This document shows, one piece after another, positions 8,461 to 45,794 of a stretch of 64,000 nt of DNA (within the stretch, counting starts at the first letter, position 1; each line of letters begins with the position of its first letter). Under the pieces are notes generated by a model that saw only the letters and a program-made list of their open reading frames with translations, was not told the DNA's origin and did no database searches. Location: the NCBI RefSeq assembly GCF_018316655.1, contig NZ_CP074136.1:80774-144773 (forward strand), given 5' to 3'. The translations under genes and the position numbers were made by a program. Origin of the DNA: Nocardiopsis changdeensis (GTDB taxonomy: Bacteria > Actinomycetota > Actinomycetes > Streptosporangiales > Streptosporangiaceae).

Positions 8461-8529
8461 GTGAAACTATGGTACTATAGTGATTGTTGATGAGGAGATT
8501 GGCCTCTCGTCATCAACGCGATACGACCG
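8461..8529 (+). promoter_or_regulatory. family I promoter and structured leader, copy 1
   Basis: The block GTGAAACTATGG then TACTATAGTG holds an extended -10 (TGG-TACTAT, 8470-8478) with an inverted repeat CTAT-N6-ATAG. About 7 nt later the RNA would start with a hairpin: GTTGATGA, G, GAGA, loop TTGGCC, TCTC, G, TCATCAAC (8486-8517). The conserved tail GATACGACCG (8520-8529) follows, then 26 nt to the ATG. The loop and tail are identical in copies at 11493, 34564 and 45749, while the stems vary with pairing kept. Confidence 0.75.
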
Positions 8530-8555
8530 CATCCGCAACGATTGGAGTGCGCCCT

Positions 8556-9173
8556 ATGGCGCGTGCACGGATCACCCCCGCGCACCTCACCGCACATCTA
8601 CAGCGCCTGCTCTGCTCGCTGGCCACACCCCGGCAGTGGGAAGACCTCATCACCGCGGCCGACCGCATCGGCCGCTACTCCCCCCGCAACCGGGCGATCA
8701 TCCTCGCCCAGTACCCGAACGCCACCAGCCTGGCCGGCAGCTCCGCGTGGGCCGGGTACGGCCGCCGGATCATCGGCGGACAGCGCGGGCTGGGCGTACT
8801 GGCCGTCACCCGCTCCCCCGGCGGCGCACACACCCGCGCCGACCACGAGCAGGACGTGTTCGCGCCCGACCTGCGTCCGCCCCACGAGCAGGACACCCCG
8901 GCCCACCACCCCGAGCCCGCCCCCTACCGGGGCGAGAGCGGCGCGACCGTGGTCAAGGTCTGGGACGTGACCCAGACCGCCAAGGTCACCGACTGCGCGG
9001 CGTGCGGCCGGGCCGCCGAGGCGCCGTGCGCGCCGGGCTGTGGCGGCATCCCCGGGGCGCCCGCCGAGTCGGTGACCCCGGCCCAGTGGTGGCAGCTGGT
9101 CCAGGAGCTGCCCGAGGGGTTCGACCCCGAGCCGGTGTGGGCCGCGCTCAACGAGGTCGTCTTCCTGGTCTGA
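8556..9173 (+). CDS. ArdC N-terminal-like (antirestriction-type ssDNA-binding) protein
   Basis: 205 residues from the ATG at 8556. Residues 1-85 resemble the ArdC-N domain, especially YSPRNRAIILAQYPNATSL followed by SSAWAGYGRRI and GLGVLAVTR, which matches the family pattern of SxxNxxLIxxQxPxAT and a later W-x3-GR. ArdC proteins bind single-stranded DNA and protect incoming plasmids from restriction. The metalloprotease half found in full ArdC is absent; instead there is a Cys cluster (CAACGRAAEAPCAPGC) at about 145-165 and a short helical tail. The family I leader precedes it. Confidence 0.6.
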   Translation: MARARITPAHLTAHLQRLLCSLATPRQWEDLITAADRIGRYSPRNRAIILAQYPNATSLAGSSAWAGYGRRIIGGQRGLGVLAVTRSPGGAHTRADHEQDVFAPDLRPPHEQDTPAHHPEPAPYRGESGATVVKVWDVTQTAKVTDCAACGRAAEAPCAPGCGGIPGAPAESVTPAQWWQLVQELPEGFDPEPVWAALNEVVFLV

Positions 9174-9277
9174 GAGGCCCCCAGGGGCGCGGGACCTCTC
9201 CCGCGCCCCGGCTTCGCCCTCCTACTGTCCGCCGTGTTCGGACACGGCCCCCTTCTTTGCTTACTTGGAGTGACCAT

Positions 9278-10171
9278 ATGTTCCATGGCGACCTGTACGA
9301 CGGTTCCCAGATGCTGCCCCATCCCGCCGTCGGCCGCCGAGCCGTGGTGCGCACGGACTGGGACAGCGGCCGGGTGGAGTACTCCCTCCTCTCCGTCGGC
9401 ACGTTCACCCTGATGCCCGTACTCGACTGCCCCGAGGGGTGGAGCGACCCGCACGGGCGCACCCTGCCCTGCAACCACGTCCGGCTGTACATGGGCACCG
9501 GCGGCCCCCACACCCGGCAGGAGAACCGCAAGCACACCCCCGCCGTGCACGGGTACGGGCTCACCGGCCCGCTCACGACCGACACCCGACCCGAGATGGG
9601 CGGCATCAGGGGAGAGAACCAGTTGGCGTTCTCGACCTGGCAGAGCCTGCCCTCCGCCACCCGTGAAGAGGCGGCGCGGATCGTCAAGGCGGTGGCCGCC
9701 CACTGGGGAGCACGCCCCGACCTGGACCGCATCAAGGCCGCCTACGCCCGCACCCAGGCCCCCCGCCTGGAGCGCCAGGCCCGCAAGCACGCGGAGAGGG
9801 CCCGCGCCCGGTTCGAGGCGGCCGCCCGCGAGCTGGCCGGTGCGCTCGCCGACGCACACCACCAGCAGCGCCTGGCCGACACCCGCAGCGCCGCGCAGGC
9901 GGCCCCGCTGATCAGCCCGGACGCCCCGGCCACGGCCGAGTACACCGTCCACGGCGAGCGCGAGCGCCTCACCGGCGAGTACGCGGTCAACGCGGTCACT
10001 GACGGCACCGGTCGGGTGGTCCACACCCCGGGGCGCGGGTGGGTCTGGCAGACCCTGGAGACGGTGGTGACCGCCGCCGGCCCCGAGGACGCCGCCCAGG
10101 TGGCGGCGGCGATGTTCCCGAGCTTTGACGAGCGGGAGCACGACGAGAGCGGCGAGGAGGACGAGGAGTAG
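9278..10171 (+). CDS. hypothetical protein with coiled-coil centre
   Basis: 297 residues, ATG at 9278 preceded by TTGGAGTGACC. The N-terminal 100 residues form a domain with HVRLYMGTGGPHTRQENRK and GYGLTGPLTTDT. A central helix rich in Arg, Ala and Glu (LERQARKHAERARARFEAAA, about 160-210) looks like a coiled coil, and the C-terminus is acidic (DEREHDESGEEDEE). No family is recognised. It lies 104 bp after the ArdC-like gene without its own obvious promoter and may be in the same transcript. Confidence 0.7.
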   Translation: MFHGDLYDGSQMLPHPAVGRRAVVRTDWDSGRVEYSLLSVGTFTLMPVLDCPEGWSDPHGRTLPCNHVRLYMGTGGPHTRQENRKHTPAVHGYGLTGPLTTDTRPEMGGIRGENQLAFSTWQSLPSATREEAARIVKAVAAHWGARPDLDRIKAAYARTQAPRLERQARKHAERARARFEAAARELAGALADAHHQQRLADTRSAAQAAPLISPDAPATAEYTVHGERERLTGEYAVNAVTDGTGRVVHTPGRGWVWQTLETVVTAAGPEDAAQVAAAMFPSFDEREHDESGEEDEE

Positions 10172-10172
10172 C

Positions 10173-10204
10173 GGCCCCGCGCCGCCCCGGGGAGGGGCGC
10201 GGCC
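10173..10204 (+). terminator. GC-rich hairpin after the coiled-coil gene
   Basis: Arms GGCCCCGCGCC and GGGCGCGGCC flank a GC loop directly after the stop. Confidence 0.4.
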
Positions 10205-10256
10205 CCGCGCCCCTCCCCCCACCCTCACCCGATCCGAGGAGCACAAGGAGACTCCC

Positions 10257-10997
10257 GTGGACGACGCCAAGGCCCGCCGCAGAATCGACGCCCTGCTGGC
10301 CACCGCCCGCCACCCCAACACCTCCCCTGCCGTCGCACAGGCGTACCTGGCCAAAGCCGCTGAGCTGCGCATCCGCTACAACGTCGACCCCGACGCCGCC
10401 CACCACTGCCCCGGCACCGGGCCGGACACGAAGGACGCCGGTGTGTCCTGGTGGGATTTCCACGTCCCCGACACCGGCGGGCGCGGAGCGGCGTGCGCCG
10501 CCGGCCTGGCCTACGTCATCGACGCCTGCGGAGGCATGTCGGTGCGCGGACGGGCCCGCAGCGCGGGCGGCTACCAGGTGACGGTGGTCGCCGCCGAGGG
10601 TGCCATGGCCCTCATCCGCGAGCTGGTGCCGGTGGTCCTGGAGCAGATGCACCGCCGGGCCGTGGCCGAGTGCCGCCGCTGGCGCGCCGAGCGGTACGGC
10701 GGCGCCACCGACGCCGAGGCGCGCCGGTGGCGCGAGGACTACGTGCGCGCGTTCGGTTTCGGCCTGGCCGAGCAGATCAACACCGGCAACCGCGATCTGG
10801 TCGCCGAGGGCGAGGCCGGGCGGGCGGCCGGGATGGTGCTGGCCGCCGACCGGACGCGGGTGCAGGCCGCCTACCGGCGCCGGTACGGGGGACGGGTGCG
10901 CACCGTGCCCGCCCACGGGGCGCGCCACGCCCAGGCCCTGGAGGCCGGGCGGCGCGATGGCCGCACCAGTGCCCCCCACACCCGGTCCGGCGCCTGA
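10257..10997 (+). CDS. DUF2786-domain protein
   Basis: 246 residues, GTG at 10257 with AAGGAG upstream. Residues 1-45 (ARRRIDALLATARHPNTSPA, then AQAYLAKAAELRIRYNVD) match the DUF2786 motif found on phages and plasmids, in which a KIxALLxKAxxTxxxxEAxxxxxKAxxLMxxY pattern is typical. The rest matches the long variant of that family: WWDFHVPDTGGRGAACA, LAYVIDACGGMSVRGRARS, and a helical C-terminus with AFGFGLAEQINTGNRDLVAE. Molecular function is unknown for the family. It is followed by a strong hairpin. Confidence 0.8.
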   Translation: MDDAKARRRIDALLATARHPNTSPAVAQAYLAKAAELRIRYNVDPDAAHHCPGTGPDTKDAGVSWWDFHVPDTGGRGAACAAGLAYVIDACGGMSVRGRARSAGGYQVTVVAAEGAMALIRELVPVVLEQMHRRAVAECRRWRAERYGGATDAEARRWREDYVRAFGFGLAEQINTGNRDLVAEGEAGRAAGMVLAADRTRVQAAYRRRYGGRVRTVPAHGARHAQALEAGRRDGRTSAPHTRSGA

Positions 10998-11018
10998 GCC
11001 GGACCCGACAGAGAAACC

Positions 11019-11046
11019 GGTGCGGGCCCCGCACGGGGCCCGCACC
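11019..11046 (+). terminator. perfect 12-bp hairpin
   Basis: GGTGCGGGCCCC-GCAC-GGGGCCCGCACC lies 22 nt after the DUF2786 stop and just ahead of the next, apparently damaged, gene. Confidence 0.55.
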
Positions 11047-11201
11047 CCGACCCGGAAGGAACACCCGGTACAGCAGGACACCGCGACGTTGACAGGACAC
11101 ATGCCCACGCCGGTCAACGCCTACAACGCCCCCACATCCCCGACGAGCCCCCGGCCCTGCCCGCGCCCGAGGGCGCCGGCCAGGGCACGGCCGACCTGCC
11201 G

Positions 11202-11471
11202 GTGCCCGGCAGGACCTACCGCGCCACCTACAGCACCGACTGGCAGGACGGCGGGCGCACCACCTACCAGGTGCAGGGGGTGGGGGCGTTCGAGCTGCGC
11301 GCCGACACGGTCTGCTGCGCATGCGGGAACGACGAGCAGGGCCGCCCCCGGCCGTGCCGTCACGTGGAGGTGATCTACGGGCGCGGGCCCCGCTACACGC
11401 CCCAGGGCCAGCGCCAGGACCTGCGGGACGACGACCACCGGGGGCGGTGCGGGAAGCACCCCACAAAGTGA
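11202..11471 (+). CDS. small Cys-containing protein, probably 5'-truncated by frameshift
   Basis: The clear coding part is 89 residues from GTG 11202: RTYRATYSTDWQDGGRTTY, then CCACGNDEQGRPRPCRHVEV, a likely zinc-binding C-C-x-C...C-x-H cluster, and a basic tail. GTG 11202 has no ribosome site. Protein-like sequence continues upstream in this frame to about 11130 (IPDEPPALPAPEGAGQGTAD) and then in another frame from about 11100 (MPTPVNAYNAP). Adding one C to the C5 run near 11130 would join them, and GGAAGGA at 11050 is the best ribosome site. It may therefore be a pseudogene or hold a sequencing error. Function unknown; the Cys pattern resembles SWIM-like zinc motifs only loosely. Confidence 0.5.
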   Translation: MPGRTYRATYSTDWQDGGRTTYQVQGVGAFELRADTVCCACGNDEQGRPRPCRHVEVIYGRGPRYTPQGQRQDLRDDDHRGRCGKHPTK

Positions 11472-11538
11472 AACTATGGTACTATAGCGTGTGTCGATAG
11501 GGGGGATTGGCCTCTTCCCGTCGACGCCGATACGACCG
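11466..11538 (+). promoter_or_regulatory. family I promoter and structured leader, copy 2
   Basis: GTGAAACTATGG plus TACTATAG matches copy 1 exactly over 20 bp. The hairpin runs from GTCGA (11493) through GGGGGGA, loop TTGGCC and TCTTCCC to TCGAC (11525), kept by G-U pairs in RNA. GATACGACCG at 11529-11538 is followed by 21 nt to the ATG. Confidence 0.75.
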
Positions 11539-11559
11539 TCTACCAGGGAGTACTCCCAC

Positions 11560-12285
11560 ATGATGCTGACGACGATCACCAAAAACTGGCTTTCCGCCCT
11601 CGGGATCTCCGAGGACCAGGTGCACAAGACCGCGCATGCCCTCCACGCCCTGGAGCCCACCGATCTCACCGTCCTGGTCGAGGCCGCCCGCTCCCCCTTC
11701 CTGGGCGAGCTGGCCGAGGTCGACCCCGCCGGGCGGATCGGAGCCCCGCGCCCCATCAGTGCGGCCCTGGCCGCGTCGGGATGCGTGTTCGCCCGCACGC
11801 TGCACGAGGGCACCCGCCCGCGCGACCACCATTGGCTCTCCCACCTGGGGTGGCTAGTGGCCTTGTACGTCCAGCCCGGCGGCGGCGACTGGGCCATGAG
11901 GCCCGAGGCCGTGGACCTGGACAAGGCCCTCGCCGAGCGGCACAGCGCCCACACGGGCGAGTTCAGCCTCCAGCCCCTGGCCACGCTCGGGCTGCTGCTG
12001 CACCGCACCCGCGTGCAGCTGGGCCTGTTCCACCCCGGCAACGACGTCGAGTACTGGCTGCTGACCCGCATCACGCGGTCAGTGCTCTGCGAGGTCATCA
12101 ACGCCAAAGTGCCGGGCTCACCCCTGACCGAAGGCGGCTACGACGACGCGGCCGCCGCGATGATCACCCAGGCCGTCATCCACGCCGAGAGCGACGACGA
12201 CGCATTCGACCTCGCTGACCGGGCGCGCATGCCCGACGCCTACAACGCCCGGCAGCGGTACATCCGCTCGCACGTCCGGTCCTAG
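11560..12285 (+). CDS. hypothetical helical protein
   Basis: 241 residues from ATG 11560 (a second ATG is at 11563), with AGGGAG upstream. An open frame reaches back to 11491 but runs through the leader hairpin, so that start is rejected. The sequence is mostly helical: AGRIGAPRPISAALAASGC, WLVALYVQPGGGDWAMRPEA, TLGLLLHRTRVQLGLFHPGN, and a C-terminal DEFDLADRAR-like segment. No family recognised. Controlled by family I leader copy 2, so it belongs to the same regulon as the genes at 8556, 34635 and 45815. Confidence 0.7.
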   Translation: MMLTTITKNWLSALGISEDQVHKTAHALHALEPTDLTVLVEAARSPFLGELAEVDPAGRIGAPRPISAALAASGCVFARTLHEGTRPRDHHWLSHLGWLVALYVQPGGGDWAMRPEAVDLDKALAERHSAHTGEFSLQPLATLGLLLHRTRVQLGLFHPGNDVEYWLLTRITRSVLCEVINAKVPGSPLTEGGYDDAAAAMITQAVIHAESDDDAFDLADRARMPDAYNARQRYIRSHVRS

Positions 12286-12289
12286 ACCC

Positions 12290-12320
12290 CCGGGGCCGCC
12301 CCACCACGGGGCGGCCCCGG
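12290..12320 (+). terminator. GC-rich 13-bp hairpin
   Basis: CCGGGGCCGCCCC and GGGGCGGCCCCGG pair perfectly 5 nt after the preceding stop. Confidence 0.55.
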
Positions 12321-12421
12321 CCCGCCGCGTGCACGGGCCGGCCGACACCCGGGGCTCCCGCCAGGACGCATGCGGGCCCGCGGCCACCCCGCCCGGCCCA
12401 GAAGGCCGCCGAAACACGAAA

Positions 12422-12497
12422 AACCGGCCCGGACCCCCTTGCGGGGCCCGCCCCGGAGGGCGAGTTGGCCTTGTCCGGGCCGGTTCCGATACGACCG
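12422..12497 (+). promoter_or_regulatory. family I structured leader, copy 5 (variant)
   Basis: A 13-bp perfect stem AACCGGCCCGGAC (12422-12434) / GTCCGGGCCGGTT (12473-12485) encloses an inner GC hairpin and the conserved TTGGCC (12465-12470). GATACGACCG follows at 12488-12497. The upstream promoter block of copies 1-4 is missing, and the leader-to-ATG distance is 84 nt rather than 20-27, so this is a diverged member. Confidence 0.6.
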
Positions 12498-12581
12498 CCT
12501 CCGATCGGCGGGGCGCACAATGGGGCCACACCACCGGAAACGACTGGACACATAGTAACCGCGGCAAGGAGAACGCACACC

Positions 12582-13550
12582 ATGAGCGACCACCAGGAGC
12601 CGACGCCGGACCAGGCCGACGCCGGACTGCTCACCCTGGAGGAGTGGGCGAACCGCTGCGGCTACAGCTACAGCCGCGCCTCCACCCTCGCGCGCGAGGA
12701 GGAGGACTTCCCCGACCCCGTCCGGTACCGGATGGTGCCCAAGCGGCGCGCGGACACGCCCCTGCCGCCGGGCACCGACCCCGACCAGGCGGTGACCCTG
12801 GATAGGTTCGCCGACCTGATCGGATCCTCCGCCAAGACCGTGCGCCGTGTGGTCACCACCCACTCCCGGCCGCTCCCGCCCCTGGCCGACCCCGCGGAGC
12901 GGACCGCGTGGCCCACCCAGGGGCACCGTGCGCTGGGCGCCCTCCTGGAGTGGTGGAACGCCCGCCCGGCCACCACCACGAAGGTCGCCCTGTACGACCC
13001 CGAGAAGCTGGCCCCGTTCGAGCCCCGCCGGCCCCGGCCTGTGCCTCCGCTGGAGAAGCTGGGCGTGGCCCCGGACGAGGAGGTGACGGCGAGCCGGTTC
13101 GCGTCCCTGATCGGCGTCGACTACAAAACGGTCGGCCAGTACCGGCAGCTCTCCCCCGAGAAGATGCCGCGCACGGCCGACGGCCGGCGCGTGCAGGACC
13201 TGGAGTACGGCGAGATCGCCCAGTTCCGGCTCGAGGACCTGTACCGGTGGTGGCAGAGCCGCCCCGGCAGCCGGCTGGGCGACCGCACGGGCCAGGGCGC
13301 GGGCAAGCGCCGGCGCCGCGGTGACCGCCCGGCGCCGGAGGGGATGACCCTGACCAGGTTCGCCAGACTCATCGAGGTGGATCCCGCGAAGATGCACCGG
13401 TACCGGCGCCGGCATGCCGGCTCGATGCCGGCCACGGTCGACGGACGCCGGGCGCAGGACCTCGCCAAGGGCGAACGCGCCTACTTCCCCGCCGAGGGAC
13501 TGCACCAGTGGTGGCAGAACCTTCCCGAGGACGACGAGGGCGCCCACTAG
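12582..13550 (+). CDS. protein with four tandem AlpA/MerR-like HTH units
   Basis: 322 residues; ATG 12582 with AAGGAG upstream. Four units of similar design can be aligned: LEEWANRCGYSYSRASTLAR (about 14), LDRFADLIGSSAKTVRRVV (about 67), ASRFASLIGVDYKTVGQYR (about 165) and LTRFARLIEVDPAKMHRYRR (about 255). Units 3 and 4 are each followed by the same DGRRxQDL.....Y...LxxWWQxxP module; unit 2 ends in a related LLEWWNARP. Each resembles an excisionase-type winged HTH. A protein with several DNA-binding modules could bridge repeated sites, but its target is unknown. It converges on the tyrosine recombinase gene, so a role in recombination control is possible. Confidence 0.7.
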   Translation: MSDHQEPTPDQADAGLLTLEEWANRCGYSYSRASTLAREEEDFPDPVRYRMVPKRRADTPLPPGTDPDQAVTLDRFADLIGSSAKTVRRVVTTHSRPLPPLADPAERTAWPTQGHRALGALLEWWNARPATTTKVALYDPEKLAPFEPRRPRPVPPLEKLGVAPDEEVTASRFASLIGVDYKTVGQYRQLSPEKMPRTADGRRVQDLEYGEIAQFRLEDLYRWWQSRPGSRLGDRTGQGAGKRRRRGDRPAPEGMTLTRFARLIEVDPAKMHRYRRRHAGSMPATVDGRRAQDLAKGERAYFPAEGLHQWWQNLPEDDEGAH

Positions 13551-13588
13551 TGTCGGCCGGCCCTTACCTGTGGCGGATCCCGCAGGGG

Positions 13589-14572
13589 TCAGGCGCTGAG
13601 CAGGAAGGTCGCCACCGCGTAGGCGGGGGCGTTGGCCAGCCGGTGCTCACCCTGTTCGTACCGCTGCGTGGTGCGCGGGTCGGCGTGGTCCATCGCCTCT
13701 TGCAGGTCCCACAGCGACACCCCGGCCGCCCGCGCCAGAGTCGCGTAGGTGGCGCGCAGCACATGCGGACGCACCTGCGCGGGGGCGCGCAGGCCCGCGG
13801 CGCGCGCGCACCGGGCCAGGATCCGCGTCACCTGGTCATCGGACAGGCGGCCGCCGTCGTTGGCCAGGAGCAGCGGCTCCCATGCCGCCACCGGCGCCAC
13901 TGCCCGCCGGGCCGCGTGGTGGGCGTCCAGGTAGCCGAGAACGGCCGGTACCAGCGGTGCCGTGCGGCGCTTGTCGCCTTTGCCGGTGTAGGTGATGGTC
14001 CGGTGCGCCCCGTGCACCCCCAGGTCGCCGACGTCCATGGAGGTCAGCGTGGCCACACGGAACCCGCCCATCCCCAGCAGCGCGACCACCGCGGCGTCGC
14101 GCGGCCCCCACGCCGGGGCGGCGTCCTCGGCGGCCGCCAGCAGGTCCAGGTACTCGCTCTTGTCCAGGGCCCGGGTGGGCGCACTGGCCTTGGGGGGGCG
14201 CTTGACCGACGCGGCCGGGTTGTGCAGGCCCAGGTCCTCGCGGCCGTTCTCCGCCGCGTAGCCCACCGCGAAGGAGTAGAACGAGGACACCGAGGCCAGG
14301 CGCCGGGCCCGGGTCGAGGAGGCGTCCCCGGCGGCCTGCCGGGCGCGCGTCCAGGCGTCCACGTGCACGCGCCGCGCCGCCAGCACGTCCACGCCCAGGC
14401 CGTCGAGGAACCCCGCCCACATCTCCAGGTCCCGGGCGTACGCCTGCCGTGTATGGGGGGAGGGCTGTGCGAGCAGCCACGCCACCCGGATCCGGTCGGC
14501 CAGGCCGGGCTCCGGCGCCGCTTCGGGGCGGGCGGTGGGGATGGTGTGCGCGGGCAGGGGCTCCAGGGTCAT
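13589..14572 (-). CDS. tyrosine recombinase / integrase
   Basis: 327 residues from ATG 14572. The N-terminal SAM-like core-binding domain (SPHTRQAYARDLEMWAGFLD) is followed by the catalytic domain with the expected residues: Arg in GMGGFRVATLTSMDVGDLG, Lys in TYTGKGDKRRTAPL, H-x-x-R in PHVLRATYATLARAAGV, His in MDHADPRTTQRY, and the nucleophilic Tyr of that same block. The architecture is XerC/D-like rather than phage-lambda-like (no arm-binding domain). It could integrate the element or resolve multimers. No att core can be recognised. It is convergent with the multi-HTH gene, with only 38 bp between. Confidence 0.9.
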   Translation of the reverse strand: MTLEPLPAHTIPTARPEAAPEPGLADRIRVAWLLAQPSPHTRQAYARDLEMWAGFLDGLGVDVLAARRVHVDAWTRARQAAGDASSTRARRLASVSSFYSFAVGYAAENGREDLGLHNPAASVKRPPKASAPTRALDKSEYLDLLAAAEDAAPAWGPRDAAVVALLGMGGFRVATLTSMDVGDLGVHGAHRTITYTGKGDKRRTAPLVPAVLGYLDAHHAARRAVAPVAAWEPLLLANDGGRLSDDQVTRILARCARAAGLRAPAQVRPHVLRATYATLARAAGVSLWDLQEAMDHADPRTTQRYEQGEHRLANAPAYAVATFLLSA

Positions 14573-14764
14573 GTCCCTGAGCCTACGGCCCGCGTGCCGT
14601 GTCGCGCCGTTCGCGCGGGTCATCGGCTTGCCCGCAGGGGCGGTTGAAGATTTCCGACCGGAATTGAGGCAGGAGGCGGGCGGGTCGCCCGTCGGGCTCC
14701 GTCGGGTGGCGCTGCGCCGCCCCTTGGCCCAGGGGTGTGTCCTTCCTGGTCGCGGGGGGTGCTC

Positions 14765-16565: not shown

Positions 16566-16578
16566 CCCACCCCTGCTC

Positions 16579-34607: not shown

Positions 34608-34634
34608 TTCGACCACCCGAAAGGGTTGACACCC

Positions 34635-36036: not shown

Positions 36037-36064
36037 CCCACAGGAGCCGACCCCGCAGCACACC

Positions 36065-38072: not shown

Positions 38073-38215
38073 CCAGGTCAGACCGCGCAGGGCACGAAAG
38101 CGGCCGAGCACCACACGGTGGCGGCAGGCGCCGCCTCCCGGCCCTTGTCGGGCACGGCGTGGTGACCTTCCGGAGGCGGGCCGGGGCGAGCTGACCAGCG
38201 CCCACAGGACCCCTT

Positions 38216-38290
38216 TTACTGCCGTGCCCACCGAAGCACGTCCCGGCGTCGGCGCTCCAGGGCGGTCACCACTTCAACTCGCACCACCGC
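38216..38290 (-). pseudogene. C-terminal fragment related to the gene at 40455
   Basis: The minus strand encodes VVTALERRRRDVLRWARQ and a TAA stop, nearly the same as LVAALERRRRQDVLRWAQQ at the end of the 183-residue protein at 40455-41006. Only about 25 codons remain, with no start. It is a relic of a duplication or rearrangement. Confidence 0.6.
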
Positions 38291-38465
38291 CCCGACGGCT
38301 CCCGCGCCACCGCCACCCACGCCGCCGCTAGGGCCCCGTTCAAGGCCAGGCCGTAGCGCACGTGTCCGTGTGATCTGCGATGATGCCGTTCCGCGCCTGT
38401 GGAACGGAGGCCCTGATGCCACGCTCATCCCCCGCCTCCTGCGCACGCTAGAGAAAGGCACCCCC

Positions 38466-39113: not shown

Positions 39114-39176
39114 CCGGCCCTGGCCGCAACTGGACACCCCGGCCGGGGCGGGCACGGATGGCCCTAGGATCCGCGC

Positions 39177-39704
39177 ATGGCCCTCGCCGCGCTCATCATC
39201 TCCCTGCTCAGCCTGCTCATCTCGGGCATCGCCCTGTACCCGCAGCTGACACAGCACCGGCGCGACGCCGACCGCCGCCACGACGAACTCACCCCGCACG
39301 TACACGTCGCCGTCCGGCGCCAGGACGGCGACCGTGCCGTATTGGAGGTGACCGTCACCGGACCCCGTTCCCTGGAGCGCCTGGACACACTCCAGGTCCG
39401 TCTGGAGGACGACCACCCGCGGTCCCCCGTGGTCGCCGGCGGACCCACCCAGGAGGACCTGGACGCGCAGCTGTGGGGCCCCTACCAGCTCTCCCAGGGG
39501 GACGGACGCACCGTCGAGCTGACCGACGTCGCCGTGCGGCAGCTCTACGCGCTGAGGCTCACCGCCACCCCGCCCCCTCCCTGGGCGGTGCCCGCGCACT
39601 GGCGCCAAGACCAGAACAGCGCCCCGCTCATCGTCACGGTCCAGTGCCGCAGCGGCCGCACGTCCTGGACACCGCTGCGCCGGGAACACGTTCACCCCCG
39701 GTGA
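39177..39704 (+). CDS. membrane-anchored hypothetical protein
   Basis: 175 residues, ATG 39177. One N-terminal membrane helix (ALAALIISLLSLLISGIALY), then a basic stretch and a soluble beta-rich domain (HVHVAVRRQDGDRAVLEVTV, LYALRLTATPPPPWAVPAHW). The basic residues after the helix suggest the domain faces the cytoplasm. No family recognised. The start has only a weak ribosome site (CTAGGATCCGCGC). Confidence 0.65.
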   Translation: MALAALIISLLSLLISGIALYPQLTQHRRDADRRHDELTPHVHVAVRRQDGDRAVLEVTVTGPRSLERLDTLQVRLEDDHPRSPVVAGGPTQEDLDAQLWGPYQLSQGDGRTVELTDVAVRQLYALRLTATPPPPWAVPAHWRQDQNSAPLIVTVQCRSGRTSWTPLRREHVHPR

Positions 39705-39808
39705 CGGCGCCCCCGCTTCCGAGCACCGAATTCCGGTCCCTGCGGCCGGGCTCGCGCGGTACCGTCCGAGAGCTACCGGTGCCCACACCTGTTAGAGGAG
39801 TGAAAAGA

Positions 39809-40435
39809 GTGGTTGCTCATGTGGTGTTCGCACCGTCCTCGGCGCCGGTGCCGCTGCTGCCGATGAGCCCGGAGGAGCCGCTGGTGGCCATCGGCGAGGA
39901 CCTGGACCACCTCATCGAGTCCGTCGGCGCGCTGACGGGCGAGGACCCCGTACAGGTCCTCACCGGCATCACCCCCACCACCCGGTTGGCCATGCCCGCC
40001 GCCGTCGTGCTGGACCTGGTCGGAGCCGGCCACGACGCGTTCGCCTGGGGGCAGCTCGGGCTCCTGCTGCGACTGATCTGCGACCAGGACCCCGACATGG
40101 TCCGGTTCGACGTGGGCACCGACCCCAGGAACCTGCTGTCCGTCCTGCTGCTGCCCGCCGCCCGCGCCCTCCACGAGCTGGGCGTCCCGGTGGAGCTGTG
40201 GGCGTTCGAGGGCCACCAGGGCCCGGTCCGGATCCCCCTGTTGACCGGGACCGCGTGGGCTCCCCCGCTACTGCCGCACCTGGCCGAGCTGGCGGCGTTC
40301 GACCACCAGGGGCGCGCCGCCCGGGTTCCCGGCCAGGAGCTGGACGGCTACGCCTACCAGGCGCCCGCCGACGGCGGATACGTGCTGACCCCCACCGGGG
40401 CTCTGCTGCGCGGCCTGCTGGTCACGGCGAGCTGA
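39809..40435 (+). CDS. hypothetical protein
   Basis: 208 residues from GTG 39809 with AGAGGAG upstream (another GTG is at 39800). Hydrophobic but without a clear membrane segment: VVFAPSSAPVPLLPMSPEEP, LGLLLRLICDQDPDMVRFDV, LHELGVPVELWAFEGHQGPV. It ends with TPTGALLRGLLVTAS. No known family. It converges on the 183-residue minus-strand gene with 19 bp between the stops. Confidence 0.65.
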   Translation: MVAHVVFAPSSAPVPLLPMSPEEPLVAIGEDLDHLIESVGALTGEDPVQVLTGITPTTRLAMPAAVVLDLVGAGHDAFAWGQLGLLLRLICDQDPDMVRFDVGTDPRNLLSVLLLPAARALHELGVPVELWAFEGHQGPVRIPLLTGTAWAPPLLPHLAELAAFDHQGRAARVPGQELDGYAYQAPADGGYVLTPTGALLRGLLVTAS

Positions 40436-40454
40436 CCGGCGCCCGCACACTCTC

Positions 40455-41006
40455 TTACTGCTGGGCCCACCGAAGCACGTCCTGCCGGCGTCGGCGCTCC
40501 AGGGCGGCCACCAGCTCGGGATGCTCACGGTCGAACGCCTCCAGGGCCTGGAGGGCGTCGGTGACGGCCTGTTCGTGGCGGCCGGAGTCCCCGCGGGGCG
40601 AGAGGTAGGGGTCCAGCTCTCCGGCGTCGTGTGCCCGGCCCGCCGCCTCGGTCGCGATGTCCTGCGCGGCCCGGAGCGCCTCCACCAGGTGGGCGCGGGC
40701 CTGTTCCAGGTTCGGCGGGACGGTGGACCGCACTGCCTTGAGTGCGGCCTCGATCTGGGCGGCCTCGGCTGCGGTGAACGCCGCCCGGCCGAGCGCGGCC
40801 GTCGCTCCTGCGGGAAGGTCTCGGGGGTGGGTGAGCGCCCAGCCCCGGCCCAGCTCCACCCCGTCCAGGGAGGCGATGAGGACCACGTCGTCCTGGCGAC
40901 CCAGGTCGGTGGGGCGCACAGTGTGCACCACCTCTACGCGGACGGTGCGCCCGTCCCTGGTCCGTTTGGTGAGCGCGGTCGTGACGTGCTGCTGCGGCGC
41001 TGCCAT
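40455..41006 (-). CDS. hypothetical protein with helical C-terminal half
   Basis: 183 residues, ATG 41006 with GGAAGGGC upstream. The N-terminal part has beta strands (GRTVRVEVVHTVRPTDLGRQ, DDVVLIASLDGVELGRGWAL), the remainder is a long helix (AAQIEAALKAVRSTVPPNLE, LVEALRAAQDIATEAAGRAH) ending in ALERRRRQDVLRWAQQ. A relic of that end lies at 38216-38290. A CCCCGC-type hairpin on the same strand is at 41195-41179, in the 478-bp leader region. No family recognised. Confidence 0.65.
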   Translation of the reverse strand: MAAPQQHVTTALTKRTRDGRTVRVEVVHTVRPTDLGRQDDVVLIASLDGVELGRGWALTHPRDLPAGATAALGRAAFTAAEAAQIEAALKAVRSTVPPNLEQARAHLVEALRAAQDIATEAAGRAHDAGELDPYLSPRGDSGRHEQAVTDALQALEAFDREHPELVAALERRRRQDVLRWAQQ

Positions 41007-41178
41007 GAGATGTGCCCTTCCGGCCGAGGAATCCGAACCGGGACGGCAGGCACACGGGCCCGCCGCCCCTGTGCAAGGAGCGGTTGTGATCCTCGGCCCC
41101 GGGCGGGGCCGCCACGACTCCCCCGGGCAGAGCCGGGGTGTCCTTCACCGGCGCCGGTGCGCCGGCGGTGCTGCGATA

Positions 41179-41195
41179 CCCCCGCGGAGGCGGGG
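41179..41195 (-). repeat. solo I-E repeat-like hairpin on minus strand
   Basis: Minus strand: CCCCGC-CTCC-GCGGGGGTATCGC. It resembles repeat R3 and the family II hairpins, but without the second hairpin at the usual distance. The gap 41007-41484 holds nothing else I can name apart from the promoter region of the next plus-strand gene. Confidence 0.35.
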
Positions 41196-41484
41196 AGGCC
41201 GCACAGGCTGATCGTTGTACGCGAGCGCGGAACACCATCGAGCGTTCCCCTGTGCGGCCTGTTCGTGAGTCTAGCCCGCCGGCGCCCACGGGCGGAGGCC
41301 ATCGGCGAACACGGGAGCAGCGGCCCGCCGGCGCCGTTCACGTCGCGTGTCCCCGGCCTGGTCTACCCTGGGCCCCTTCCACGGCCCACCCGAGACACCC
41401 CGGGCCGTCCACGTTGAAGTACCCGGTGAAGGCCCGCCCAGGCGGCGGGCCGCCTTTCGGCGTTGGACGAACAGGGACGGATCC

Positions 41485-41874
41485 ATGGACCACAGCGACC
41501 GCGACCGCACACTCATGGCCGAGCTGTACCGGCTCGGGTACACCAGCTACGAGATCGGCCGCGCCTTCGAGCGGGACCCCTCCACCGTGCGCTGGCACCT
41601 GCGTGAGCACGGAGTGGAGGTCCGCCGCCGCGGCTCACGCCCGCGCCCGGATGTGGACACCGCCGCCATCGTGCACCTGGTGGACGGGCTGGGGATGTCC
41701 TACGTGGTGACGGCACGCCTGGTCGGGCTCTCCCGCACCGCCACTCGGAACCGGTACCTGCGCCACCACTACGGCTACGGGTGGCGGGTGTCACCGCCGC
41801 ACCTGCGCGGCACCACCCCCAGCGGTCTGCCGGCCGGCGCCAGGGGAGGCCGCCCCGGACCCGGCCCGGAGTGA
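41485..41874 (+). CDS. small HTH DNA-binding protein
   Basis: 129 residues from ATG 41485 with AGGGACGG upstream. Two helix-turn-helix units are visible: LMAELYRLGYTSYEIGRAFE then RDPSTVRWHLREHGVEVRRR, which resembles the Hin-recombinase or resolvase HTH, and IVHLVDGLGMSYVVTARLVG then LSRTATRNRYLRHHYG. It has no catalytic domain, so it is probably a regulator. Its C-terminus is Gly/Pro-rich. It converges on the gene at 41915. Confidence 0.7.
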   Translation: MDHSDRDRTLMAELYRLGYTSYEIGRAFERDPSTVRWHLREHGVEVRRRGSRPRPDVDTAAIVHLVDGLGMSYVVTARLVGLSRTATRNRYLRHHYGYGWRVSPPHLRGTTPSGLPAGARGGRPGPGPE

Positions 41875-41877
41875 GGG

Positions 41878-41909
41878 CCGGGCCGCCCCGCGCACACGGG
41901 GCGGCCCGG
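41878..41909. terminator. bidirectional 13-bp hairpin
   Basis: CCGGGCCGCCCCG-CGCACA-CGGGGCGGCCCGG sits between convergent genes ending at 41874 (+) and 41915 (-). Confidence 0.65.
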
Positions 41910-41914
41910 AGGGG

Positions 41915-42136
41915 TCAGGCCACGTTCTGCGCGATGGCCCCCAAGATGATCATCAGGACCAGCAGCGCCCCGAGGAGAAAACCGAAGTCGCCGGAGGAAC
42001 CGCCCCGGCCCCGGGAGCCGCCGCCCCGGGACGGAGGGCCGCCGGCGCCGGGACGGGAACGGTAGTGGCCGCGCACGTAGGTGCCGTCCTTGCGCTGGTA
42101 GCCGCGGACGCGCTTGCGGGGGGTGTAGTCGGACAT
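41915..42136 (-). CDS. small membrane protein with basic, Gly-rich N-terminus
   Basis: 73 residues from ATG 42136, which has AGGAGA 6 nt upstream. The N-terminal half is basic and Gly/Ser/Arg-rich (YRSRPGAGGPPSRGGGSRGR); one membrane helix closes the protein (FGFLLGALLVLMIILGAIA). The KDGTYVRGHYRS stretch resembles a short motif seen in several phage and plasmid small proteins. Function unknown. Confidence 0.65.
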   Translation of the reverse strand: MSDYTPRKRVRGYQRKDGTYVRGHYRSRPGAGGPPSRGGGSRGRGGSSGDFGFLLGALLVLMIILGAIAQNVA

Positions 42137-42227
42137 CACGGATCTCCTGGTTCTGTGCGAGTGACATGCCGCGGCGGGGCCGGCCCATTCCAGGGCAGGC
42201 CCCGCCGTCGTTGGGGAACAGCGGAGG

Positions 42228-42500
42228 TCAGGGAGCGCTGCGGCGCGTCAGCGCCTTGATCAGCTCCATGCGGTGCGCGGACTGGGAGGGCCAGCAGGCG
42301 CGCAGCACCGCCAGCGCGAGGACGAAGACCAGGGCCAGCAGGGCCACGAGCAGCAGGAGGGCCCACGCCCAGGCGGGCAGGGGCGGGATCGTGTCGGCCA
42401 GGGCTTGGGCGATGGCGGCGAGGGCGCTCAGTCCCCCGGCGCCGAAGAGCAGGGCGATCAGCCCTCGGGCCCGGCGGCGGACGGTGGAGGGTGCGGACAC
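42228..42500 (-). CDS. small two-helix membrane protein
   Basis: 90 residues; GTG 42500 with GAGAGGA upstream. Hydrophobic segments at about 13-35 (GLIALLFGAGGLSALAAIAQ) and 43-68 (AWALLLLVALLALVFVLALA), followed by a basic tail (MELIKALTRRSAP). No known family. It precedes the 73-residue membrane protein on the same strand. Confidence 0.6.
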   Translation of the reverse strand: MSAPSTVRRRARGLIALLFGAGGLSALAAIAQALADTIPPLPAWAWALLLLVALLALVFVLALAVLRACWPSQSAHRMELIKALTRRSAP

Positions 42501-43112
42501 GTCGACAGGTTCCTCTCGGACAGGCAGGCGGAATCGGACATGGGTGACAGGGGCGCGGCGCGGTGGGCCGTCCCCGGGGTGGATACGCCGACGGCCGATC
42601 GCTGCGGATCGGCCGTCGTTCGGTTATGGGTGCGCGTGTTCGTCGGGCCGCCGGTGGGCGGTCGGTGCAGGTCTCCCGGTCGCTGGTCGGTCGGGGGGTC
42701 GGGTACGCGGACGGCCCCGACGCGAGGTCGGGGCCGTCCGGCCGCCGGGTCGAGTGCAACGCTCTGACCAGGCAAAACAAGATCAAGATGTGTTTAGGCA
42801 AAGCTCCGCTAAGGGCAAGTCAAGAGTAGCTTTGTCGCGTTACCCCTGTCCAGTGGGATGAGCAATCCCAAGGCTCATCGCTGTGTGGCTTAAATCACAT
42901 AAAAATGGTTGTGCGGGAACCATGCGCGGCGCGAGGGGCTTCCTCGGCCCGGGCGGGGTTCCGGCGCCTGCCTCCCGCGCCGCCCGCACATCCGGTCGGC
43001 GCCGGGTTCCCGGCCGGAACAGGGGGTCCCGGGGGCGTGAGCCCCCGGGTACCACCAGTCCCCGGCGATGTGTGTCCCCTAGTTATTGGTCCCGGGGTAC
43101 CGGAGTGCTCGC
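42501..43112. other. 612-bp non-coding region with hairpins and an AT-rich patch
   Basis: No supported gene. It contains ACGGCCGATC...GATCGGCCGT (near 42590), GGACGGCCCCGAC...GTCGGGGCCGTCC (near 42710) and, at about 42770-42910, a clearly AT-richer stretch with the inverted repeat GATGAGC...GCTCATC (42858-42880) and a TTAAATCACATAAAAAT run. Such a patch could be a promoter cluster, a replication or transfer site, or imported DNA. Confidence 0.5.
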
Positions 43113-43928
43113 CTAGAGGCGCGCGTCCGCGACGGCCTCCGCCACCGCGACCGGTGCCGGCGCCTGCCCGGTCTCGATGTCGTGCGCCGCCAGGGCCAGG
43201 TCCGGGCGGTCCCACACCAGCACGGCCACGCCCTGGTTGCGGTGCGGCCGGAGGGCCCAGGCGGGGGTGGTCTTCACCAGCAGCCGCGCCAGCTCGGCCG
43301 GGGCGCCGGTCCACCACTGCCGGATGCTCCCACCGCCGGAGATGCGCACGTACCGGGCGCCACCCAGGGTGAACCCGCCCAGCAGCCCGTGGTCGTCACC
43401 ACCGCGCTCGGAGCGGCAAGCCTGGTGCCAGGTGTAGGCCCGCCACGGCTCGGGCACGGCCGTGGCGGTGTCCAACCCCTGGTCCCATGCGGCTTCCTGC
43501 GCCTGCGCCAGCTCGGCCAAGGCGACGGCGGCCGCGGGGGCGAAGCCGGTGACCAGGGGCCGGCGGGGTTCGGCGTCGTGGAGGTCCGGCGGCTCCAGCC
43601 AGGTCACGCCCTCGCGGATCGTGGCCGCCAGCGGGGCGAGCACCCCGGTCAGCCACGCCTCCACCGCGGCGGCCGGAGCGGGCGGCAGGGTCAGCCGGAA
43701 GTCCTGCAAGAGCGGTTTTCCCGCAGCGGGCGGCTGCGGAAGCGGGTCGGGGCGCAACCGCCCCTCGTCGCCGGCCGACAGGTGTTCGGGCAGCGCCAGG
43801 CGCGCGGTGATGCGCTCCCGGGCCAGATCCACCCGGACGATGTGCCCCAGCTCGGGCGGATCGGCCAGCCGGGTCGGGCTGTCGGCGAAGGCGTAGGGCA
43901 CCAAGGCGGTGTCAAGGGTGAAGGACAC
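43113..43928 (-). CDS. hypothetical protein
   Basis: 271 residues from GTG 43928 with CGGAG upstream; the frame stays open to 44105 through a hairpin-rich leader. Features: GHIVRVDLARERITARLALP near the start, a helical middle (PAAAVEAWLTGVLAPLAATI, AVALAELAQAQEAAWDQGLD), then GGFTLGGARYVRISGGGSIR and GVAVLVWDRPDLALAAHDIE. No known family. Three tandem hairpins lie in its leader. Confidence 0.65.
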   Translation of the reverse strand: MSFTLDTALVPYAFADSPTRLADPPELGHIVRVDLARERITARLALPEHLSAGDEGRLRPDPLPQPPAAGKPLLQDFRLTLPPAPAAAVEAWLTGVLAPLAATIREGVTWLEPPDLHDAEPRRPLVTGFAPAAAVALAELAQAQEAAWDQGLDTATAVPEPWRAYTWHQACRSERGGDDHGLLGGFTLGGARYVRISGGGSIRQWWTGAPAELARLLVKTTPAWALRPHRNQGVAVLVWDRPDLALAAHDIETGQAPAPVAVAEAVADARL

Positions 43929-43991
43929 GGGTGTCTCCGTTCGAGGGCGTGCGGAACCGGGCCCCGCCCGGGCGCGGGCGGAGCGGGGAGC

Positions 43992-44046
43992 CCCTCGAAG
44001 GGACGATGAGCACCCTTGTGGGTGCGGCCGCACCTCGAAGGTGCGG
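43992..44046 (-). promoter_or_regulatory. three tandem hairpins in the leader of the 271-residue gene
   Basis: On the minus strand: CCGCACCT-TCG-AGGTGCGG (44046-44028), GCACCC-ACAA-GGGTGC (44025-44010) and CCCT-TCG-AGGG (44002-43992). The first and third share a CCTTCGAGG core. They end 64 nt before the start codon. Confidence 0.5.
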
Positions 44047-44150
44047 TGTGTTTCACCGTAGCGGGGCCCGCGGACATCCGGGCGGGCACGGAGATGATCC
44101 GCCATGAGCGGAGACGGGGCCGGGTGGGCCGTCGACCGGGGAATGTCCGG

Positions 44151-44561
44151 TCAACGGCGTGCACACCCGGTCGCCTGGACGAGCACGAGGCCCGGCCACA
44201 CCGGGAACCCCAGGGTGGCGCCCACGATGGCGCCGGTCACGACGTCGTACACCGTTCCCTGCCCCCACGCTGTGGCCAGGGCGGGCGCCAGGGGGCAGGA
44301 CACCAGCAGCGCCCACATCGCCACCGGCCCGTTGATGGCGCTGTGCGGAAGCACCCGCTGGTCGGCGAGCGCTCCGTAGGCGATCACCAGGCAGGCCGCC
44401 GCGGCCAGGAACACGCCCGCCGGTGCCGGGACTTTGAGCGGCATGGTGTACACGCTGAACCCCGCGCAGGCCAGGGCGATCAGCCACGACCACAACGGGA
44501 GCGGCCGCGCGTCGGCGTGGGCCGCATCAGGTACTGGGGGGACGGGGGGCGTCGGTGTCAC
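44151..44561 (-). CDS. membrane protein with several helices
   Basis: 136 residues; GTG 44561 overlaps the stop of the preceding small gene (GTGA). After a Pro-rich N-terminus there are about four hydrophobic segments: LWSWLIALACAGFSVYTMPL, AGVFLAAAACLVIAYGAL, AINGPVAMWALLVSCPLAPA and YDVVTGAIVGATLGFPVWPG. No recognised family. It forms a two-gene membrane operon with the gene at 44558-44767. Confidence 0.6.
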   Translation of the reverse strand: MTPTPPVPPVPDAAHADARPLPLWSWLIALACAGFSVYTMPLKVPAPAGVFLAAAACLVIAYGALADQRVLPHSAINGPVAMWALLVSCPLAPALATAWGQGTVYDVVTGAIVGATLGFPVWPGLVLVQATGCARR

Positions 44562-44767
44562 GGGCGCCGCTCCCGCCACCGCCGGAGGTGGTATCCGACC
44601 TGCTGGGCCACCATCAGCGCCAGTCCTGTCGCCATCAGGAGCAGGCTGCCGGTGCCGGGCCCGGTGGAGAGGGCCAGCCAGACGCCCGCCGCCCACGCCA
44701 GGGCCGCGCCGAGCAGGACCGTCCGGTCCACGTGAGTCAGCAGCGACTCGGTTCTGTAATTGAGCAT
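44558..44767 (-). CDS. small two-helix membrane protein
   Basis: 69 residues from ATG 44767. Membrane helices at about 16-34 (VLLGAALAWAAGVWLAL) and 40-57 (SLLLMATGLALMVAQQVGY), basic tail HLRRWRERRP. The -10-like TACAGT (44777-44782 region on the minus strand) lies only about 10 nt before the ATG, so the message may be leaderless. Coupled to the downstream membrane protein gene. Confidence 0.6.
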   Translation of the reverse strand: MLNYRTESLLTHVDRTVLLGAALAWAAGVWLALSTGPGTGSLLLMATGLALMVAQQVGYHLRRWRERRP

Positions 44768-45067
44768 GCGCGTACTGTAGCGATCCTGGTGGGAGTGCGC
44801 TCCGGCTTCGACGCATTCGCCTCTGCTTGATGATCTCGCACCGAACATGCGGCGCCGCCCCGGTTGCCGCAGGCCCTCGTCGCCGCGCCGGCAGGCCACA
44901 TCGGGGTGGAGGCGGCCGCGGCGCGGCGGGCCGGAGGGTCCGGGGAAACGTCGGCGCCCCCGTCTACGGTGGTGGTTCAACGGCGCCCGCCGCCGTCCAC
45001 GTTGATCCACCCGCCCGCCGGACCGCGTCCGGTCGGGCTCTCCTGCGATCGGTGAGGACGGCACCCG
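44768..45067. other. 300-bp divergent intergenic region
   Basis: It holds the promoter region of the minus-strand membrane operon and of the plus-strand gene at 45068. No repeat family member or further gene is seen. Confidence 0.5.
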
Positions 45068-45655
45068 ATGGACACCGAGGACCTGGAGCAGGTGCGCCGG
45101 CACCTGCCCGCACACGTGCACCTGACCCGCCACAGCGCCACCCTGACCGGTTCCCGCCGGGAGGTGGACGTGCTGGTGCTGTGGACCGACCATCCTTATG
45201 AGCGGTGCCCGCGCTGCCGCGAACCCCTGCCGCGGACCGCCCCCTGCCCGCTGTACCTCCACGCGGAGGCCGCTGGCGTGGAGGCCGCGGTGGAGGCCGT
45301 GAACCGCGAGCACGAGGCGTGCGGCCGGTGGCTGGATGTCGCCTACGCCCACCTGGACACCGATCGCGCCGACGCCGCCGACGTCGCCGAGCTGGCCCGC
45401 GACCTGGCCGCCCGGTGGCAGTCCCAGGTCGGGCACTGGCGCCGGGTACGCCGCGGGGAGCTGCGCGAGCTGCTCCAGGACCTGGACACCGCACCCGAGG
45501 AGGGCGAGACCCTCCAGGAGGCCCGCGACCGGATCAGCGCGGGTGCCCAGATGGACCCGGGCCCGTACTGGGATGCCGACCGCGGCTGCTGGGCGGCGTG
45601 GGACTACGACCCCGGTGACGACGAGCAGATCCTCATCGAGCACGCCCCTTCCTGA
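45068..45655 (+). CDS. hypothetical protein with CxxC motif
   Basis: 195 residues from ATG 45068 with GTGAGGA upstream. N-terminal part: EQVRRHLPAHVHLTRHSATL, VDVLVLWTDHPYERCPRCRE with a third Cys in PRTAPCPLYLH, probably a zinc site. The rest is helical (DVAELARDLAARWQSQVGHW, LRELLQDLDTAPEEGETLQE) and ends acidic with Trp (DRGCWAAWDYDPGDDEQILI). No recognised family. Confidence 0.65.
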   Translation: MDTEDLEQVRRHLPAHVHLTRHSATLTGSRREVDVLVLWTDHPYERCPRCREPLPRTAPCPLYLHAEAAGVEAAVEAVNREHEACGRWLDVAYAHLDTDRADAADVAELARDLAARWQSQVGHWRRVRRGELRELLQDLDTAPEEGETLQEARDRISAGAQMDPGPYWDADRGCWAAWDYDPGDDEQILIEHAPS

Positions 45656-45723
45656 GGGCGACCGGTTGCGGGCGGGTGACCCCTGTCACCAGGGGTTTCC
45701 GGCGGGCACGGGAACCCCGCGCG

Positions 45724-45794
45724 GTGAAATCCTGGTAATATAGTGACTGTTGATGCGGAGAATTGGCCTTCTCGCGTCGACAGCGATACGACCG
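45724..45794 (+). promoter_or_regulatory. family I promoter and structured leader, copy 4
   Basis: GTGAAATCCTGG plus TAATATAGTG; hairpin GTTGATGC, GGAGAA, loop TTGGCC, TTCTC, GCGTCGAC (45749-45781), where two T-G pairs replace Watson-Crick pairs of the other copies; then GATACGACCG (45785-45794) and 20 nt to the GTG. Confidence 0.75.

Follow-up and report, generated by a model that had tools for sequence, protein, structure and literature searches.

The stretch of Nocardiopsis changdeensis DNA analysed here, 64,000 nucleotides long (contig NZ_CP074136.1 of assembly GCF_018316655.1, forward-strand positions 80,774 to 144,773; hereafter the window), carries five copies of a short hairpin element, each lying upstream of a different gene. 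In every copy the letters TTGGCC are followed by the same ten-nucleotide tail. We conclude that the element is probably a shared regulatory leader of plasmid genes that acts as RNA. The window is part of a Nocardiopsis plasmid: two test stretches, of 121 and 181 bases, are 100 % identical to NZ_CP080600.1, the 144,776 bp plasmid unnamed2 of Nocardiopsis sp. MT53, in which record position equals window position plus 115,052, modulo the record length. PLSDB enters this record as linear; because the window spans the ends of the record, we take the plasmid as circular. Its annotation includes a MobF relaxase, a type IV coupling protein and conjugal transfer proteins. A second plasmid, NZ_CP099838.1 of Nocardiopsis exhalans, has five leader copies too. 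PLSDB types both plasmids as non-mobilizable, and their conjugation genes are known by annotation only. Copies and genes of the window plasmid are referred to as MT53 and those of the N. exhalans plasmid as NE.

The pattern TTGGCCT-N11..16-CGATACGACCG has exactly five matches in the window, all on the + strand and each beginning at a TTGGCC position given in the table, against an expectation of 0.00 and none in 100 shuffles. The five hairpin-and-tail copies described by an earlier sequence-only reading of this DNA are thus all present. Across the whole 7.4 Mb genome the looser pattern TTGGCC-N10..25-GATACGACCG returns the same five sites only, and the reversed control pattern returns 0. Four copies are of a simple type, with a hairpin of 32-33 nt made of about 7 outer and 5 inner pairs, a small internal loop and the loop TTGGCC, followed after 1-3 nt by the tail. 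An upstream block is found at four of the five copies; that of copy 5 had been read as GTGAAACTATGG, but its actual letters are GTGAAATCCTGG, with three mismatches to the pattern. Copy 3 is of a long type (64 nt) and had been taken for a diverged fifth copy. It does have TTGGCC and the exact tail, but it is not merely a weaker form, since its 13-pair outer stem is of unrelated sequence, it contains inner helices and it has no -10 block. The distance of 20-27 nt proposed between tail and start codon applies to four of the five copies (26, 21, 27 and 20 nt in copies 1, 2, 4 and 5) but not to copy 3, where the likelier start, ATG 12582, follows the tail by 84 nt. The suspicion that the element belongs to no known Rfam family agrees with 0 matches in the 64 kb at the Rfam 15 gathering cut-off.

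Table 1. Leader copies, the genes behind them and other features of the window (window positions).
Feature	Position	Strand	Details
Copy 1 upstream block	8461-8482	+	extended -10 TGG-TACTAT at 8470-8478
Copy 1 hairpin	8486-8517	+	loop TTGGCC 8499-8504
Copy 1 tail	8520-8529	+	GATACGACCG
Gene after copy 1	8556-9173	+	205 amino acids; record 123608-124225
Copy 2 upstream block	11468-11489	+	extended -10 at 11477-11485
Copy 2 hairpin	11493-11525	+	loop TTGGCC 11507-11512
Copy 2 tail	11529-11538	+	GATACGACCG
Gene after copy 2	11560-12285	+	241 amino acids; record 126612-127337
Copy 3, long type	12422-12485	+	outer stem 12422-12434 with 12473-12485; inner helices; TTGGCC 12465-12470; no -10 block
Copy 3 tail	12488-12497	+	GATACGACCG
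Gene after copy 3, multi-helix-turn-helix protein	12582-13550	+	start 12582 (annotated 12792)
Copy 4 upstream block	34540-34560	+	extended -10 at 34548-34556
Copy 4 hairpin	34564-34596	+	loop TTGGCC 34578-34583
Copy 4 tail	34598-34607	+	GATACGACCG
Gene after copy 4	34635-35615	+	326 amino acids
Copy 5 upstream block	45724-45745	+	3 mismatches; extended -10 at 45733-45741
Copy 5 hairpin	45749-45781	+	two U-G wobbles; loop TTGGCC 45763-45768
Copy 5 tail	45785-45794	+	GATACGACCG
Gene after copy 5	45815-46582	+	255 amino acids; GTG start
Orphan Cas8e (Cse1)	19518-20975	+	type I-E
Orphan Cas11e (Cse2)	26095-26613	+	type I-E
Small helix-turn-helix protein	41485-41874		common to both plasmids
RapZ C-terminal-like gene	49148-49552	-	stand-alone

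Folding with RNAfold, tail included, gives the following sense and antisense values: -19.7 (z -3.47) and -19.5 (z -3.53) for copy 1 (8486-8530), -18.1 (z -0.87) and -13.0 (z 0.36) for copy 2 (11493-11539), -43.6 (z -1.90) and -50.3 (z -3.40) for copy 3, -13.5 (z -2.07) and -13.1 (z -2.13) for copy 4 (34564-34608), and -16.5 (z -2.14) and -11.7 (z -0.57) for copy 5 (45749-45795). Copies 2 and 5 clearly favour the sense fold. When the hairpin alone is folded, the sense strand does better in 7 of the 8 simple copies of the two plasmids and in 7 of all 10 copies (two of the seven are identical); the two strands compared, the sums over the ten copies are -212.1 and -201.5. Pairing was said to persist although the stem bases differ, and it does: GTTGATGC with GCGTCGAC and GTCGA with TCGAC pair, partly via G-U. 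Of the 83 cells scored over seven distinct simple copies, 94.0 % are paired, compared with 61.4 % for the best slid control, and both sides change in 3 stem pairs (4 cells), in an alignment of few and related sequences whose copy 1 row is misaligned by one base. Covariation therefore backs the hairpin structure in a suggestive, not a decisive, manner.

All eight simple copies of the two plasmids are preceded by an extended -10 element (TGKTANTAT), spelled TGG-TAMTAT in MT53 and TGT-TAKTAT in N. exhalans, whose hexamer begins exactly 13 nt before the first stem base, leaving a gap of 7 nt to the hairpin in 8/8 cases. The usual -10 spacing would put the transcription start at or beside the leader stem. 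Because the hexamer sits at this fixed distance, the mRNA of the simple copies probably begins at the hairpin, to judge from this promoter-like sequence; a standard -35/-10 pair was found neither in 8200-14700 nor in 34300-47400. A predicted start at the hairpin base in 8/8 simple copies would suit a hairpin that stabilises or insulates the 5′ end against mRNA decay and has no dedicated reader, and an intercistronic copy could likewise shield a processed end. Such a hairpin needs neither an invariant TTGGCC nor a 10-nt tail that is identical in 5/5 copies and two positions apart between plasmids, and we regard this explanation as quite unlikely.

Geometry is also the starting point for another explanation, in which the nascent hairpin and tail would load a factor for processive antitermination or pausing on RNA polymerase, in the manner of nut, put or dfn sites. 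The 11-13 nt from hairpin to tail end match a pause-like spacing such as that of the his pause. LoaP antitermination depends on a leader hairpin, and the resemblance extends to a small leader hairpin common to more than one operon, which in the dfn case is read in trans by LoaP (PMC12691694). Unlike LoaP/dfn, which has a UNCG-type hairpin, a leader terminator and a NusG paralogue, the present element has the hexaloop TTGGCC, no leader terminator was found, and the genome's single NusG-family match lies on the chromosome, leaving no NusG paralogue on the plasmid. Two terminator-like sites occur on the + strand of 8200-14700, at 8272 and 9231, and none in 34300-47400; no terminator lies between any of the five window copies and its gene. 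Recruitment of such a factor seems to us very unlikely.

The long copies bear on what kind of element this is. There is one per plasmid, each before orthologous multi-helix-turn-helix (multi-HTH) genes and without the extended -10. They have a longer outer stem of other sequence together with inner helices; in both, TTGGCC sits immediately ahead of the 3′ arm and the tail is exact. The predicted fold of the N. exhalans long copy leaves TTGGCC unpaired, and for its MT53 counterpart an unpaired TTGGCC costs 1.5 kcal/mol relative to the optimum (-41.1 and -42.6). Retention of TTGGCC and tail in another fold lacking a -10 fits an RNA rather than a promoter element.

Comparison of the two plasmids carries the argument further. 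Orthologous gene pairs stand behind four copies of each plasmid (62.5, 57.9, 55.2 and 49.6 % protein identity) and one copy is particular to each, before MT53 gene 4911 and before NE gene 82490. The tail reads GATACGACCG in 5/5 MT53 copies and GATACATCCG in 5/5 N. exhalans copies, only positions 6-7 being different, and the spelling of the upstream block is likewise plasmid-specific. For ten two-state copies the chance of splitting by plasmid at random is 0.008, a guide only, since the copies are related. Because four orthologous copies change alike, the long copies included although they have otherwise little in common with the rest, the comparison suggests that a plasmid-specific trans-acting factor reads the leader. 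The earlier view that a common trans-acting factor is likely is thereby backed, since the tail and the upstream block change jointly from one plasmid to the other. Gene conversion, a possible alternative, would need ten bases to be copied between unlike sequences. The N. exhalans copies lie four on one strand and one on the other; in NZ_CP099838.1 82005-82469 two copies stand back to back on opposite strands of one intergenic region, before gene 81346 and the DUF2786 gene 82490.

Variation of block and tail by plasmid is also what favours control at the DNA level, with block and tail serving as operators for a repressor or activator encoded by the plasmid, the copy-3 multi-HTH protein being one example, and the hairpin as a secondary matter. 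The regulon does hold this multi-HTH protein, a small HTH protein is encoded on both plasmids, and in Bacillus p576 the repressor has operators on one or both sides of promoters (PMC8708921). That system, EGeRS2 or Reg of the establishment gene regulatory sequences (EGeRS), uses a ribbon-helix-helix repressor on dual-heptamer DNA operators and resembles the present case in placing several operons, there establishment operons, behind one promoter type regulated plasmid-wide. It differs in that the conserved part here is hairpin plus tail; the dual-heptamer operators TTATCCCnnTTATCCC have 0 matches in the window with up to 3 mismatches allowed. The long copies retain tail and stem without the -10 block, and pairing and loop are conserved while stem letters change, all of which leaves DNA-level control unlikely in our estimation.

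Our preferred reading, to which we attach an even chance, is that the element is a cis-acting RNA leader of a small regulon on a plasmid with conjugation genes, read by a plasmid-specific trans factor. RNA polymerase would start from the shared extended -10, and the mRNA would begin at or beside the hairpin, which, with its loop UUGGCC, would keep the 10-nt tail GAUACnnCCG unpaired ahead of the ribosome-binding site. The trans factor would then read loop and tail and jointly set translation or decay of the downstream genes. The long copy without a -10 is probably intercistronic and would be read on the transcript of the preceding gene. The sequences, the fixed geometry, the kept pairing and the joint change of tail and block between the two plasmids are observed; the start site, the action at the RNA level, the existence of the reader, the sign of control and a role of the regulon in plasmid establishment or maintenance are what we infer.

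Several points weigh against this reading. When the tail is folded too, the two strands of copies 1 and 4 do about equally well and copy 3 favours the antisense; with the hairpin alone, the antisense is better for both long copies and for the simple copy before NE 77736. The covariation check that had been proposed bears out the kept pairing and the changes on both sides, but at a level only modestly above chance, its five measures being matched by 13-31 of 500 shuffles. With two lineages only, homogenisation or shared drift could account for part of the concerted change. As to the reader, the plasmid has no NusG paralogue, as noted above, and no locus common to both plasmids was found for an antisense RNA partner, G-U pairs and one mismatch being allowed. 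A stand-alone RapZ C-terminal-like gene encodes a protein that is 87 % identical between the plasmids and keeps the GCTGGKHRSV of RapZ. The RapZ C-terminal domain alone can bind RNA, apparently through a basic C-terminal tail (PMC7073468). The corresponding end of the plasmid protein is less basic: of its last 17 aligned residues 3 are Arg and none is Lys, whereas E. coli RapZ has 4 Arg and 2 Lys there. Relatives are present in 117 plasmid records (69 from Streptomyces), so the protein is not specific to the leader, and it is a possible but weak candidate for the reader.

The transfer genes raise a further explanation, namely that the element works as single-stranded DNA on the transferred strand, like a Frpo-type promoter used on entry. 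The plasmid has a MobF relaxase and a coupling protein, and all five window copies lie on one strand; Frpo promoters drive some leading-region genes, and Frpo/ssi hairpins, like the leader, precede genes of a plasmid that carries transfer genes (PMC11541004). In Frpo, however, the -35, the -10 and their complements are inside the folded strand (PMC11541004), unlike the leader -10, which is outside the hairpin in 8/8 simple copies. One N. exhalans copy lies on the strand opposite the other four, and the copies are about 27 kb or more from mobF. We hold this explanation to be highly improbable.

A hairpin followed by a tail ending in CCG also recalls the handle of type I-E clustered regularly interspaced short palindromic repeats (CRISPR), and the leader could in principle be a mimic that occupies host Cas6e. 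Three Cas6e loci are present in the host, where one repeat type has the handle ATGGACCG, and the plasmid has an orphan Cas8e and Cas11e. Stem and loop are nevertheless unlike those of the repeats, and the tail comes after 1-3 extra bases. In N. exhalans, 12 sites that resemble repeats show ATGGTCC, ATGGACC and similar (under a pattern that would miss other handle lengths); no array lies in the 60 kb around its Cas6e; and the N. exhalans plasmid is without a homologue of the two plasmid cas genes. A mimic is, in our view, extremely unlikely. The leader was also rejected as a type I-E repeat or Racr, the host repeats being CCCCGCGCACGCGGGG-type hairpins followed by ATGCTCCC, ATGGTCCC or ATGGACCG, from which the leader differs. 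An integron attC, judged by the attC consensus, was discarded as well: copy 2, the NE 74896 copy and the long copies do not retain the stem ends GTT/AAC. As to the cas genes themselves, eight other proteins scanned in the Cas8e/Cas11e region gave no Cas family match, and on the host chromosome arrays were found near two of the three Cas6e loci. The plasmid Cas8e and Cas11e may possibly be a decoy of host Cascade.

Among known systems the leader resembles most nearly, in kind, the establishment gene regulatory sequences of Bacillus pLS20-family plasmids, with membership of neither EGeRS1 nor EGeRS2 implied. EGeRS1 of the conjugative plasmid pLS20 is a multi-copy structured sequence of 420-751 bp with multiple inverted repeats that blocks upstream read-through and in which no promoter was found (PMC8708921). 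Like EGeRS1, the leader occurs in several copies right upstream of the ribosome-binding sites of different operons, and the copies mostly cluster by plasmid. Unlike EGeRS1, it is about a tenth as long (32-33 nt, long type 64 nt), has a fixed loop and tail, and carries a promoter-like extended -10 in 8 of 10 copies.

The five genes behind the MT53 leaders are without common homology, as had been stated (best off-diagonal blastp E 0.09). The ArdC-N-like label given to the copy-1 gene was not confirmed by profiles: no family was matched, and 6 members gave no ArdC family at E 10. The multi-HTH label of the copy-3 gene stands on PHROG excisionase and HTH matches (best E 1.4e-6). No Pfam family at E 0.1 was found for the genes of copies 1, 2, 4 and 5. 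Among 5.8 billion proteins at E 1e-5, the copy-2 gene has 10 homologous proteins, its own cluster included, and the copy-1 gene 6; the predicted structures of the two proteins are poor (predicted local distance difference test 53.7 for copy 2 and 36.7 for copy 1). The copy-4 gene has no homologue among the N. exhalans plasmid proteins. In the copy-3 gene, the open reading frame (ORF) from ATG 12582 aligns, from its residue 21 onwards, with the N. exhalans orthologue from residue 21 and GGAG lies upstream; judged by this, the annotated start at 12792 is probably 210 nt too late. A leader peptide starting at the TTG of the loop was rejected, the TTG being in frame in copies 1, 3 and 4 (57, 117 and 57 nt) and not in copies 2 and 5 (53 and 52 nt).

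A search of actinobacterial plasmids for further homologues had been proposed, and the outcome is divided: five copies came to light in a second plasmid, but a wide spread over actinobacterial plasmids was not found. In BLAST searches of 72,556 plasmids with one copy as query each time, only the two Nocardiopsis plasmids were convincing; matches in Borrelia and Caballeronia plasmids (E 4) and in 48 further plasmid records, mostly from enterobacteria (E 2 among the matches listed), were set aside as chance. A covariance model of the leader gave some match at E 0.1 in 34 of 40 genomes of the genus, with more than 26 bits only in two, one of which is taken as N. exhalans on the agreement of the coordinates. 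In larger sets, where 15-24 candidates were scored per genome and weak copies may be missed, it found the leader in 1 of 250 family genomes (our own), in 2 of 345 genomes of the order and in 1 of 396 sampled phylum genomes (again our own). The model gives the long copies 15.4 and 10.2 bits, not above noise, and their assignment rests on loop, tail and orthology.

Beyond plasmids and sampled genomes, one DNA-pattern search of viral contigs gave 0 matches, and the 5 and 2 viral-contig stretches obtained with other DNA patterns were attributed to chance (no good stem; 15.2-26.1 bits where the model matched). So were 55 genome-contig stretches from widely different taxa, the best of which (24.1 bits) has an inner hairpin and ATACATCCG and no outer stem. 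Phages gave no match to copy 5, the sole copy queried, and a protein-led search turned up no relative in genome or viral contigs. Further relatives of the leader genes do exist among proteins of metagenome or assembly origin. A region of Nonomuraea (NZ_LT559118.1, 11.236-11.247 Mb) was rejected, having only a transfer-gene cluster in common (ATP-binding transfer protein 71 % identical; model best 11.1 bits). A literature search, largely without subscription papers and bioRxiv preprints, returned nothing on these leaders.

Outside the window, next to mobF, the same plasmids carry a second leader family (family II, the present leader being family I), in NZ_CP080600.1 64.7-83.4 kb and NZ_CP099838.1 26.7-38.3 kb. 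On the examined strand, GACCGACACC or its variants GACCGATACC and GACCGAAACC occur within 120 nt upstream of 19 of 27 MT53 and 16 of 19 N. exhalans genes; the exact 10-mer GACCGACACC occurs 20 times (MT53) and 18 times (N. exhalans), never on the other strand. The promoter blocks of this family are GGGGTAATATTAAAGC or ACTACTGATATACTCATATTGAAA. Four MT53 and six N. exhalans genes have the motif without a tested promoter block, and MT_68471, one of the four, has a block variant. In the one N. exhalans copy folded, the motif takes up the whole of a 9-nt hairpin loop (z -2.84); in the two MT53 copies folded in full it comes after a hairpin whose loop has 6 nt (z -0.52 and -1.18, not clearly better than chance). 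Elsewhere the family II pattern was found in our own genome only among 250 genomes and in the two plasmids; one viral contig with the pattern, inside an ORF, was judged chance. The intergenic repeats of NZ_CP080600.1 at record positions 59150-83324 include GCTTTAATATTAC at 13 places, 12 of them the complement of the family II promoter block. The likeness to TAATATTAC, which we take to be the nick nonanucleotide of geminivirus-type Rep proteins, is probably a coincidence with an AT-rich -10. These plasmids thus seem to use more than one shared leader type.

To our knowledge, little is known of how actinobacterial conjugative plasmids turn on gene sets in a new host. The leader groups otherwise unnamed plasmid genes into one regulon in a single step, and by analogy this regulon may serve plasmid establishment or maintenance. 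The two-nucleotide tail difference between sister plasmids makes the reader directly testable, and the leader points to the larger second leader family on the same plasmids. A tentative and rather doubtful extension is an RNA barcode system, in which unrelated genes, also within operons, would be hairpin-tagged with a single-stranded code (GAUACnnCCG for family I, GACCGACACC for family II), a dedicated plasmid-encoded reader per code would switch its whole gene set after transfer, and code and reader would co-evolve. If this is true, the spelling would have drifted apart between the sister plasmids in every copy together.

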